A stretch of DNA of 8,698 bases from Deltaproteobacteria bacterium (GTDB lineage Bacteria; Desulfobacterota; Desulfobacteria; Desulfobacterales; JAFDCJ01), in the NCBI GenBank assembly GCA_024277475.1, contig JAJRVC010000272.1:1-8698 (forward strand). The letters are read 5' to 3'. Position numbers and translations under genes: made by a program. The notes below the pieces were generated by a model. That model did not search any database, had not been told where the DNA came from, and was given only the letters and a program-made list of their open reading frames with translations. This document shows positions 1,424 through 4,807 of this stretch, one piece after another (position 1 is the first letter of the stretch; every line of letters starts with the position of its first letter).

Positions 1424-1975
1424 TTATAATTCTAAGCCGCACCCACTGCAAAATCTCTCACCATCCTCGACGGGTTTCCCACAATTGCGGCAGAATTCAG
1501 CCCGCGATTGCTTTTCAGCCCCTGAATCATCAGACTTGCGGATGTAAGATGATGGACGACGGGAGGTAGTCTGCCAGATCAAGCAAGACCACTAAGAGGA
1601 TGAAACCACCGCTGACAACAGCCGCTAAAGCCCAGTTGAAGCCGGAGCCAGTACTTGGCGCGGCGGGTAATGCAGGGGTTTGGATGCTGGTATTTGGAGG
1701 AGGTAAACTTGTCGCCGATAAATGCGGGCAACAGCGTTGAGTCGGGCGGCTTCAGGCAAAGGTAGGGTGATCGCGGCAGGAAACCTGGTATCTCCCGGGA
1801 GTGTGCCGGTCATCAAAGCCAGGGCGGACGTCTTGTCATAGTTAGGCCAAATTTCAATATCAAGCGAGTCAATGACGGATACCGGGTTTTGTGCAAAGCT
1901 CGCGGCCATGGGCATCATCGATAAAAAATCAGTGGCACAAATGACTTGCGTTTCATTCCACTCTTCCTTAATCAT
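1424..1975 (-). pseudogene. Decayed secreted/membrane protein with C-terminal zinc ribbon
   Basis: Three minus-strand frames together describe one gene. The first (from ATG at 1975) gives a signal-peptide-like stretch (FLSMMPMAASFAQ), then SLDIEIWPNYDK and ITLPLPEAARLNAVA. A second frame gives a Pro-rich linker (LPPPNTSIQTPALPAAP) and a membrane segment (ALAAVVSGGFILLVVLL). A third frame gives RPSSYIRKSDD and a double-CxxC zinc ribbon (FCRNCGKPVEDGERFCSGCG), ending at 1424. As I recall, full-length relatives (about 300 aa, for example in Chloroflexota) have the same order with a further beta-rich section between LNAVA and the linker, which is missing here. So the gene has an internal deletion plus at least two frameshifts, and its 5' end abuts the 110-bp repeat. 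Relatives often sit near cytochrome c maturation genes; that is recollection, not shown here. Confidence 0.65.
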
Positions 1976-2267: not shown

Positions 2268-2765
2268 CTACGAACCGAATTTTCGGTCGATCTCATTTCT
2301 AATTTCCGCTACAGTTGCTCCCTTGGCGTGCATTCGAGACGCTAACTGCGCCTCATCTGTACAGATATTTCATGTGGATGCATGCGTATCGACATAACAG
2401 CTCAGCAAGTTTTTGTGGCCGAAATTTTCCCGGCATCGGCAATAACAATAGAGACGATCTAGTACCTCCGGTATCGCACGAGCTATCTCGTACGCGCTCC
2501 TGACCTTGCCGGAAAACCTCTGCGGCAATAGTGTCGGTCTATTCTCTCGCAGGTTGATATTTTCCTTTTTCAATTCTGTGAGTTCAGGGGATTGGGTTAA
2601 AGGTTTTTCTCCCTGATATATAAAATAGGCACCGGTGAGAACCAGAACGCCGCCCGCTATGTAGGCGAGCAAAGGGTACTTAGACCTCTTTTTTGTCTCC
2701 GGTGCCGTTTGCTTGGGTCTGGTGGTACGTTTTTTCGGTAGATTCTTTTTTTTCTTTTTTGCCAT
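2268..2765 (-). CDS. PCYCGC-family selenoprotein (in-frame TGA read as Sec), membrane-anchored
   Basis: If the TGA at 2372-2370 is read as selenocysteine, this gene encodes 165 aa. It has a basic N-terminus (1-29), one membrane anchor (about 31-50, LLAYIAGGVLVLTGAYFIY), a charged linker, then the PCYCGC-type domain: YCYCRC (106-111), H117, C123, H128, Sec132 and C135. Relatives carry Cys at the Sec site in a CxxC motif followed by an acidic DEA-like stretch; here the order is U-N-I-C-T-D-E-A. The frame runs 33 codons past the TGA and ends at TAG-TAA-TAG. A SECIS-like hairpin follows the TGA. SD AAGGA lies about 8 nt before the ATG. Stopping at the TGA would give 131 aa without the last two ligands. 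The role is probably thiol/selenol redox or metal binding outside the membrane, consistent with neighbouring CcmH, CcdA and TlpA. The alternative is a nonsense mutation. Confidence 0.8.
2336..2354 (-). promoter_or_regulatory. Bacterial SECIS-like hairpin
   Basis: On the minus strand GAGGCGC and GCGTCTC form a 7-bp stem (one G-U pair) closing a five-base loop AGTTA. The loop has G at its second position, 23 nt after the TGA. Bacterial SECIS elements recognised by SelB have a short stem and a small apical loop with a G among its first two bases, at about 16-37 nt from the UGA. All three requirements are met. The element lies inside the coding frame, as usual in bacteria. Confidence 0.7.
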
Positions 2766-3009: not shown

Positions 3010-3501
3010 CTATAACCCTTCGCCGAATTGCTTTAATTCTTTTTCCAGACGCTCTTTGTATTCGGAGAACCGGTCCTCATCAAAATGGGCGCCTGGTGTC
3101 GCCTGCACCCTGGTAGACCAGTGACGAATCAGAAAATATATTCCAATGGCCGCGAGGGCGACGAATACGAATGGCAAAAACCATAATATCAGGTTGAATC
3201 CCTTTTTATTGGGCTTAGCCATGATTCGTTCCCCGTAACGGCTTTCAAAGTATTGTAATATTTCTTCTTTGGTTTTGCCCTGGCGCAGCTTTTTTAAGAC
3301 CAGATCGCGCATCTGACTGCTGGTTTCGTTACTGGATTGTGCGATGGTTTGACCCGCGCAGAGAGGGCACATAATAAGACTGTAGATTTCTCTGGCCGTC
3401 TTTTGCAAGGCTTCTTCTTCCAGGTTCCGGGCCGTAACCGACAGGCCTGACAGGGGCAGGGTTAAAAGCGCCAATCCGATAATGATGATTTTGTATTTCA
3501 T
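3010..3501 (-). CDS. ccmH: Cytochrome c-type biogenesis protein CcmH/CycL
   Basis: This 163-aa protein is a membrane-anchored thiol oxidoreductase that in system I cytochrome c maturation keeps apocytochrome CxxCH cysteines reduced for haem attachment. It has an N-terminal signal/anchor (1-24), then the family signature LIMCPLCAGQ with C45 and C48, and a helical section ending in YGERIMAKPNKKGFN. A second membrane segment follows (about 103-124, LILWFLPFVFVALAAIGIYFLI), then a charged tail. An upstream in-frame ATG at 3534 exists, but the ATG at 3501 is preferred: it lies 2 nt after the ccdA stop and gives a normal signal sequence. The likely SD (GGAGGA, about 14 nt away) is inside the ccdA end. 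No other ccm genes are in the window, so this copy may serve another thiol-reduction role with TlpA and CcdA. Confidence 0.9.
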   Translation of the reverse strand: MKYKIIIIGLALLTLPLSGLSVTARNLEEEALQKTAREIYSLIMCPLCAGQTIAQSSNETSSQMRDLVLKKLRQGKTKEEILQYFESRYGERIMAKPNKKGFNLILWFLPFVFVALAAIGIYFLIRHWSTRVQATPGAHFDEDRFSEYKERLEKELKQFGEGL

Positions 3502-3503
3502 TT

Positions 3504-4256
3504 TTATAGGAACACTCCTCCTTTGGTTATCCAATAGTACATCTGGTAGAATCCGGATATCAGCAACAAGGCACCTGCAATTCGGCCCATGTAGGGTAAG
3601 ACGCGGCGCAAATAAGTTGCCAGCCCTCCTTTGAAGACAGCGAGACTTAAAGCCAGCGATGTCAGCACAGCTCCCATTCCCAGCGAATAGCTGAAGAATT
3701 GAAAAAGACCGTTTGAAAAGCCCTGAGATTTAATAGCACTTCCCACCACCACCAAAAATACGGGGAGCGTACAACCCAAAGAGGCCATCCCATACCCGAT
3801 ACCAAAGAGAAAGTAGGTGTTGAACCCCTGAGATTCAGGAGTGCCTATCAGGTTCGCAAGGCGGGCAGGAAGCGCCGTATGCACTGATTTTCCAGCCAGT
3901 AAAAATAGGCCGAGGCAAGCCAGGACAACCCCGACGAACAAACCGAGCCAGGGCAGATACTGCATGAGAAGGTAGCCCCCTGCCCAGATGATCACGCCGA
4001 CAAAGGAAAAAAGGACCGTAAATCCTAAGGTCACCGCTGTTCCAATAAGCAGCGCTCTGCCACCTCTGAGTAAAAAATTTCCGGATGCAGTACCTCCATC
4101 CCGGTCACCCAGATAGAGAGATAGATACGCCGGCAGCAGGGAAAAACCGCACGGATTAACTGTTGACACCATACCTGCCCCGAAAGAATACCCAAAGGGA
4201 AGCAAGACGGCCAAAGCATTCATCCAGTTGGCCAGAAAGATCTGTATTGCAGTCAT
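3504..4256 (-). CDS. ccdA: CcdA/DsbD-type thiol-disulfide electron transporter
   Basis: This 250-aa polytopic inner-membrane protein passes electrons from cytoplasmic thioredoxin to periplasmic thiol proteins such as TlpA/ResA and CcmH. About six membrane segments can be traced. The two redox cysteines are present: C36 in TVNPCGFSLLPAYLSLYLG (segment 1) and C162 in GMASLGCTLPVFL (segment 4). Size and motifs match the short CcdA class rather than full-length DsbD. Its ATG overlaps the tlpA stop by one base (TAATG), and its stop lies 2 nt before ccmH, so the three genes form one translationally coupled unit. Electrons most likely flow CcdA to TlpA and/or CcmH, and perhaps to the selenoprotein downstream. 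Confidence 0.92.
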   Translation of the reverse strand: MTAIQIFLANWMNALAVLLPFGYSFGAGMVSTVNPCGFSLLPAYLSLYLGDRDGGTASGNFLLRGGRALLIGTAVTLGFTVLFSFVGVIIWAGGYLLMQYLPWLGLFVGVVLACLGLFLLAGKSVHTALPARLANLIGTPESQGFNTYFLFGIGYGMASLGCTLPVFLVVVGSAIKSQGFSNGLFQFFSYSLGMGAVLTSLALSLAVFKGGLATYLRRVLPYMGRIAGALLLISGFYQMYYWITKGGVFL

Positions 4257-4807
4257 TACATGATTTCCTCAATTGACCTGATAAGCACGCTTTTCTCTAT
4301 GGCACCAACCCAGCGACGAACGATCTCTCCATCTCTGGAAACGAAGAAAGTAACCGGAAGACCTGAAACTCCGTAGTCGATGCTGATCTCTCCGGTCGGG
4401 TCCGGTCCGTTGGGATAAGTGATACCGAATTCCCGGATAAAGTTCAGGGCATCTTCCTTCCGGTCCTGGATATCCACCCCAATAAAGATTACGCCACGAT
4501 TCTTATAGGCTCGCCACGTTCTTTCCATGAGCGAGGCTTCAAGCCTGCAGGGGGGACACCAGGATGCCCAGAAGTTTATGACAACCGGCTTGCCCTTCAG
4601 GTCCGCCAGAGAAATCGTGGTTCCACTGAAGCTCGTCAAGGTGAAGTCAGGTGCCGAACGATTTACCATGGTGATGCCACTAAGTCCGGTTATGGGTTTC
4701 TTGTTTAGTATGCCCCATACTAAAAACCCCAAAAAGCCGACAAAAACCAACACAGCAATGGTTAACGCAAATTTTCGAAAAAATATCTTTTGTTCCTTAT
4801 CTCTCAT
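4256..4807 (-). CDS. Membrane-anchored thioredoxin-like protein, TlpA/ResA family
   Basis: This 183-aa periplasmic thiol-disulfide oxidoreductase is held by an N-terminal anchor (about 12-34). The thioredoxin fold starts with [11 protein letters not shown]. The active site WCPPC has C84 and C87, and GLPVTFF places the cis-proline at P151. The family reduces disulfides in apocytochrome c or other exported proteins, using electrons from CcdA. It is the first gene of the coupled tlpA-ccdA-ccmH set and ends in TAATG overlapping ccdA. The start is supported by GAGG a few bases upstream. It could equally be called ResA or CcmG-like; the sequence does not settle which substrate it serves. Confidence 0.92.

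Follow-up and report, generated by a model that had tools for sequence, protein, structure and literature searches.

A probable selenocysteine codon in an OS_HP4/CYCXC family gene from a deltaproteobacterial contig, and a possible tie between this family and CcmH

The window analysed here, positions 1 to 8,698 of contig JAJRVC010000272.1 (8,698 nucleotides (nt); Deltaproteobacteria bacterium, assembly GCA_024277475.1), carries on its minus strand, at 2268..2765, a gene for a PCYCGC-type protein of the OS_HP4/CYCXC family. Read from 2765 to 2268, the gene encodes 165 residues, given read-through of its sole in-frame TGA. The frame opens with ATG at 2765, meets the TGA at 2372-2370 as codon 132 (2370..2372, minus strand), runs on for 33 further codons and ends at TAG-TAA-TAG, exactly where an earlier sequence-only reading of this DNA had placed it. 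We hold it very probable, from comparative sequence analysis, that UGA codon 132 is read as selenocysteine (Sec) with the aid of a selenocysteine insertion sequence (SECIS) hairpin, and that the gene belongs to a known selenoprotein family.

Several features of the gene, all on the minus strand, bear on this reading. The TGA opens a U132-N-I-C135 motif (2361..2372), and a SECIS-like hairpin, GAGGCGC-AGTTA-GCGTCTC (2336..2354), begins 15 nt past it. Upstream lies a CYCRC motif, residues 107-111 (2433..2447), of which the first, third and fifth Cys are invariant in alignment A2; the UxxC sits later, at the start of a predicted helix 133-147. A hydrophobic N-terminal helix is predicted at residues 31-51 (2613..2675) by a structure model with a predicted local distance difference test (pLDDT) score of about 60, which is consistent, at low confidence, with a membrane anchor. 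The protein would then consist of this anchor and a helical domain bearing CYCRC, C123 and U132-x-x-C135.

Family membership is clear from profile searches. The protein matches NCBIfam NF041379 (OS_HP4_CYCXC, 'CYCXC family (seleno)protein') at 130.5 bits against a cut-off of 90, and Pfam PF13798 (PCYCGC) at 53 bits against a gathering cut-off of 25; as in OS_HP4, Sec lies in a UxxC downstream of the CYCXC motif, and the window protein differs from that family in sequence only. A table in PMC13188914 lists 'CYCXC family protein (hypothetical protein OS_HP4)' with PF13798 and UxxC, a table in PMC9312934 lists OS_HP4 with UxxC, and both reviews cite Zhang and Gladyshev 2007 on the Olavius symbiont. 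One database protein (P0053), whose name refers to the Olavius sp. associated proteobacterium Delta 1, is found in full and without a mismatch within one of our TGA loci (L025), whose protein is 83.8% identical to that of the window. The family was thus on record as a selenoprotein family before, and the window contributes a further member. The sequence-only reading, which knew of no described selenoprotein among PCYCGC proteins, was mistaken on this point; its Sec132 in a UxxC, its Cys-bearing relatives and its truncated database products all stand. The PCYCGC (lipo)proteins with Cys share the pattern CYCGC, C and CxxC in 120 of the 120 listed, but have Cys in place of Sec, and the two that were scored against NF041379 reach 86.6 and 79.5 bits, under the cut-off of 90.

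The codon at the site was compared across 31 loci: the window, the CYCXC loci from 7 of 291 relatives of genome G001, and 20 of the 22 over-cut-off matches in 290 relatives of genome G003. Left out were over-cut-off matches without a locus (G433:C40, with one TGA, and G369:C45, with none) and five below-cut-off matches (G519:C45, G381, G296, G473 and G328:C243). The codon is TGA in 20 loci, TGC in eight and TGT in three, and no other codon occurs; the alignment for TGA/Cys pairs that the sequence-only reading had called for thus yields them in number, 20 against 11. Among the 1446 PCYCGC homologues of three plasmid proteins, all 120 listed have the matching CxxC, so that Cys does stand at this point in relatives, as had been supposed.

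Annotation pipelines treat the TGA as a stop. Of the 358 closest database proteins found, 120 were listed, and 118 of these end at the residue before it, as protein records rather than DNA, which bears out the expectation of a 131-residue annotated product. Such records, a product of gene calling, are what favours a true stop at codon 132; that the working product has 131 residues is nevertheless highly improbable, since the reading frame and C135 are conserved past the TGA and the Cys relatives read through the site. In five sequences, the codons after the TGA and outside the hairpin have a proportion of synonymous differences (pS) at least twice that of nonsynonymous differences (pN) in nine of ten pairs, and on this comparison the codons past the TGA, hairpin aside, evolve as coding sequence. 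This also tells against the refuting case that the sequence-only reading had named, a nonsense mutation with degraded downstream codons. That the gene is decaying, its TGA a simple nonsense mutation or sequencing error and the later codons relics, could be argued from the adjacent downstream gene, which is broken in the window and flanked by an exact 110-nt repeat; recurrence of the TGA at the same codon in the 20 loci and the persisting constraint make this equally improbable.

The hairpin just 3' of the TGA, placed as a SECIS stem-loop is in selenoprotein genes, recurs in the TGA loci with up to seven pairs and a 5-nt loop, in which G at position 2 is invariant (20/20 TGA sequences). Pairing holds in 80% of 140 cells, seven cells are changed on both sides in a compensatory manner, and none of 500 shuffles reached the paired share, the number of double-change cells or the covariation score. 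Controls in which the hairpin was slid along the sequence pair in 24-56% of cells. In the five sequences, synonymous differences amount to 0.00-0.30 in the hairpin codons versus 0.52-0.86 upstream, and the hairpin sequence is missing, as judged by eye, from the Cys relatives L028-L030. A scan of the window against Rfam at gathering thresholds gave no match.

The Sec machinery was sought in genomes of relatives, nine for SelB and SelA, rather than in the source genome of the window. SelB scored over its cut-off in 9/9 and SelA in 8/9, the genome in which SelA was not found being G002. SelD was over its cut-off in all three genomes searched for it; each best match carries one TGA of its own, and that of G003 is a fragment. 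At the best Rfam place, ARAGORN called tRNA-Sec in G003, tRNA-Trp in G002 and tRNA-Leu in G001, from a search that scored 150 of 417-553 candidates per genome.

Some results weigh against the Sec reading. As many as 148 of the 500 shuffles reached the hairpin's number of pairs with a double change, and 150 its further pair types; the covariation score at a slide of +2 is 0.192, versus 0.202 in the true register; the two outer pairs are each broken in 10 of the 20 sequences; and the folding z-scores taken alone are modest (-1.19 to -3.00). The one pair outside the pS rule, L001-L020, has 0.07 versus 0.09. Moreover, three of the nine genomes tested for SelB and SelA (G257, G073 and G176) carry the Cys form only, and therefore the Sel machinery by itself cannot tell Sec from Cys. 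Nevertheless, Sec at position 132, the central proposal of the sequence-only reading, is strongly supported, because the TGA/Cys loci, the hairpin with its compensatory changes, the suppressed synonymous change, SelB, SelA and SelD in relatives and the family name all point to it. Decoding as another residue under a different genetic code is the least probable of the alternatives, verging on negligible: two of the 120 listed closest proteins (P0003 and P0004, protein records only) continue with Trp at the site, perhaps from TGG, or from TGA to which the gene caller applied another code, but the non-TGA loci all have Cys there (11/11), the SECIS-like hairpin is present, and three of ten neighbouring window genes end in TGA, beyond which, by eye and with no homology test, there is neither a sensible protein nor a further Sec gene. 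TGA recurrence, Cys pairs, coding constraint and the hairpin were the grounds for rejecting a pseudogene or sequencing error, a TGA with another sense meaning, and a functional product of 131 residues.

The surroundings of the gene suggest what the protein may do. Upstream on the same minus strand, a TlpA/ResA-like thioredoxin gene (4256..4807; PF00578, 96.4 bits), a CcdA-like gene of the DsbD transmembrane type (3504..4256) and, directly upstream, a CcmH gene (3010..3534; PF03918, 105.5 bits, cut-off 25) precede the CYCXC gene. Locus L033 likewise has TlpA, CcdA-like and CcmH genes directly upstream. Its CcdA-like protein, 84.7% identical to that of the window, matches PF02683 at 27.6 bits (cut-off 27.1); the window copy has no Pfam match of its own. 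A tblastn survey of neighbourhoods covered 13 sources, the window and 12 loci, some of them short and some from shared genomes (L001 and L020 from G001; L034, L036 and L037 from G066). CcmH lies near CYCXC in five of these (window, L020, L033, L035 and L036), cytochrome b/Rieske genes in four and a downstream zinc-ribbon partner in six.

In the window this partner is a broken remnant (1427..1915, minus strand), to which the L033 protein aligns by tblastn in three separate pieces. The remnant is without its middle part; the intact partner has about 290-330 residues in relatives, with the zinc ribbon C-terminal. The 110-nt direct repeat occupies positions 1-110, the very start of the window, and 1976-2085, and between its copies lie frames for a putative PIN-like protein and a small, likewise putative, antitoxin-like one. 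DUF2933 and YHS genes lie further along the window. No relatives of the protein were found in viral contigs and phages.

In the literature searched, so far as its text was available, we found neither a function for the OS_HP4/CYCXC family nor a link of PCYCGC, OS_HP4, CYCXC or PF13798 to CcmH; the parts seen of PMC13188914 and PMC9312934 hold nothing on the gene neighbourhood of OS_HP4 or on such a link. The evidence tying the family to CcmH thus looks new. In one genome (G523) some 110 bases separate the CcmH match from the CYCXC match, both on the same strand, and in another (G490, L056 856-1779) a CcmH-like domain and a Cys-form CYCXC domain share one open frame of 307 residues, a natural fusion. 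Among the 290 relatives of G003, CcmH occurs in 17 of 23 genomes with CYCXC versus 55 of the 267 lacking it (Fisher p 3e-7, without correction for kinship). Comparison of a CYCXC profile (built from 60 rows, of which the program's filter kept 55, with one in four of the 120 Cys homologues listed) with CcmH gave an 81.9% match, a value reached by none of 200 shuffles. Foldseek with the predicted fold places CcmH in its first two rows, a weak pointer, and a search of PDB by sequence returned nothing below an E value of 0.24 for the single protein or 0.42 for the profile.

CcmH (PF03918) is a helical bundle with a thiol motif in the loop past the first helix, an arrangement to which the predicted CYCXC fold points weakly; the two also share a common domain end in the profile alignment, and their genes neighbour each other and are once fused. 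CcmH differs in having CxxC where CYCXC has CYCxC, whereas CYCXC has the extra C123 and UxxC, and there is no sequence-family match. According to PMC3884852, helices 1 and 2 of Pseudomonas aeruginosa CcmH are joined by a loop that holds the redox motif, whose C-terminal Cys is exposed to solvent and was suggested as the first attacker; the same source describes a mechanism for apocytochrome reduction as still missing. Three CcmH-family proteins in our set (L066, L071 and L077) have CxCGC for CPxC, reminiscent of the PCYCGC motif.

Because of the TlpA, CcdA-like and CcmH neighbours, the L056 fusion, the co-occurrence, the profile match and the weakly predicted fold, we tentatively propose that the CYCXC protein may be a CcmH-like selenol/thiol oxidoreductase acting on apocytochrome c, a role we consider plausible at somewhat short of an even chance. 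CYCXC would be a thiol oxidoreductase folded as a helical bundle, placed outside the cytoplasmic membrane and recharged by the CcdA-like/TlpA pair encoded next to it; using Sec132 as nucleophile, it would reduce or guard CxxCH thiols in apocytochromes c. By analogy with CcmH throughout, Sec132 and Cys135, together with the CYCRC cysteines, might pass electrons between the TlpA-like protein and the apocytochrome. Several findings tell against this link: a five-sequence CcmH profile reaches only 11.2% against CYCXC, and the three CxCGC-type sequences alone 20.3%; a PF03918 match of protein P0001 is absent even at E values up to 10; of the 46 families for 45 CYCXC members, PF03918 is missing from the 25 listed; and in the loop after helix 1, where CcmH has CxxC, the profile alignment places CYCRC.

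The main rival on function is metal handling, because plasmid Cys relatives adjoin metal genes: the protein would bind or detoxify copper or another soft metal in the periplasm, with the Cys/Sec cluster holding the metal. One Cys relative, from Paraburkholderia, lies amid RND efflux, copper-binding, DsbD, DUF2933 and multicopper oxidase genes, one from Caballeronia near cueR and a multicopper oxidase, and one from Paenibacillus near a heavy-metal P-type ATPase; the DUF2933 and YHS genes of the window point the same way. TlpA and a c-type cytochrome are also present at the Paraburkholderia locus, however, which therefore cannot separate a metal from a cytochrome role, and the genes directly upstream in the window and L033, the cytochrome b/Rieske genes and the fusion and co-occurrence with CcmH speak against a metal role, which we regard as possible but somewhat less likely than the CcmH-like one. 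On the Caballeronia plasmid, a PCYCGC frame (L023 2701-3276) has an in-frame stop upstream of an annotated short gene.

In a CcmH gene of Nitrospinota (L059, G003:C449:9082-9429), an in-frame TGA takes the place of the second Cys codon in LRCPVC, which would give CxxU, and a hairpin follows; on its sequence, the gene encodes a candidate CcmH selenoprotein. Its local hairpin is the strongest among the 12 CcmH sequences that match one motif within 47 loci (L059-L105), at -11.5 kcal/mol, with the runner-up at -8.1; when all 54 nt are folded, however, L059 (-19.2 kcal/mol) is less stable than two Cys sequences (-22.4 and -20.0). In the 290 genomes, 72 of which match, no other CcmH match over the cut-off contains a TGA; since this TGA is known from one genome, a sequencing error is possible. 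Among over-cut-off matches in 389 relatives of G214 none has a TGA. The term CcmH does not occur in the available main text of PMC13188914. That PCYCGC/OS_HP4 is a divergent branch of the CcmH fold, working beside or instead of CcmH on apocytochrome thiols, and that thioreduction acquired selenium on two occasions, once as UxxC in OS_HP4 and once as CxxU in the CcmH of L059, where the second Cys is the nucleophile, is a broader scenario that we think unlikely on present grounds.

As a selenoprotein gene, the window gene extends a family traced to 2007 in reviews, contributing Sec/Cys pairs and a conserved hairpin. If the CcmH link is true, the family, which is uncharacterised and turned up here in Bacillota and Burkholderiales as well, would gain a concrete role in cytochrome c maturation that can be tested.
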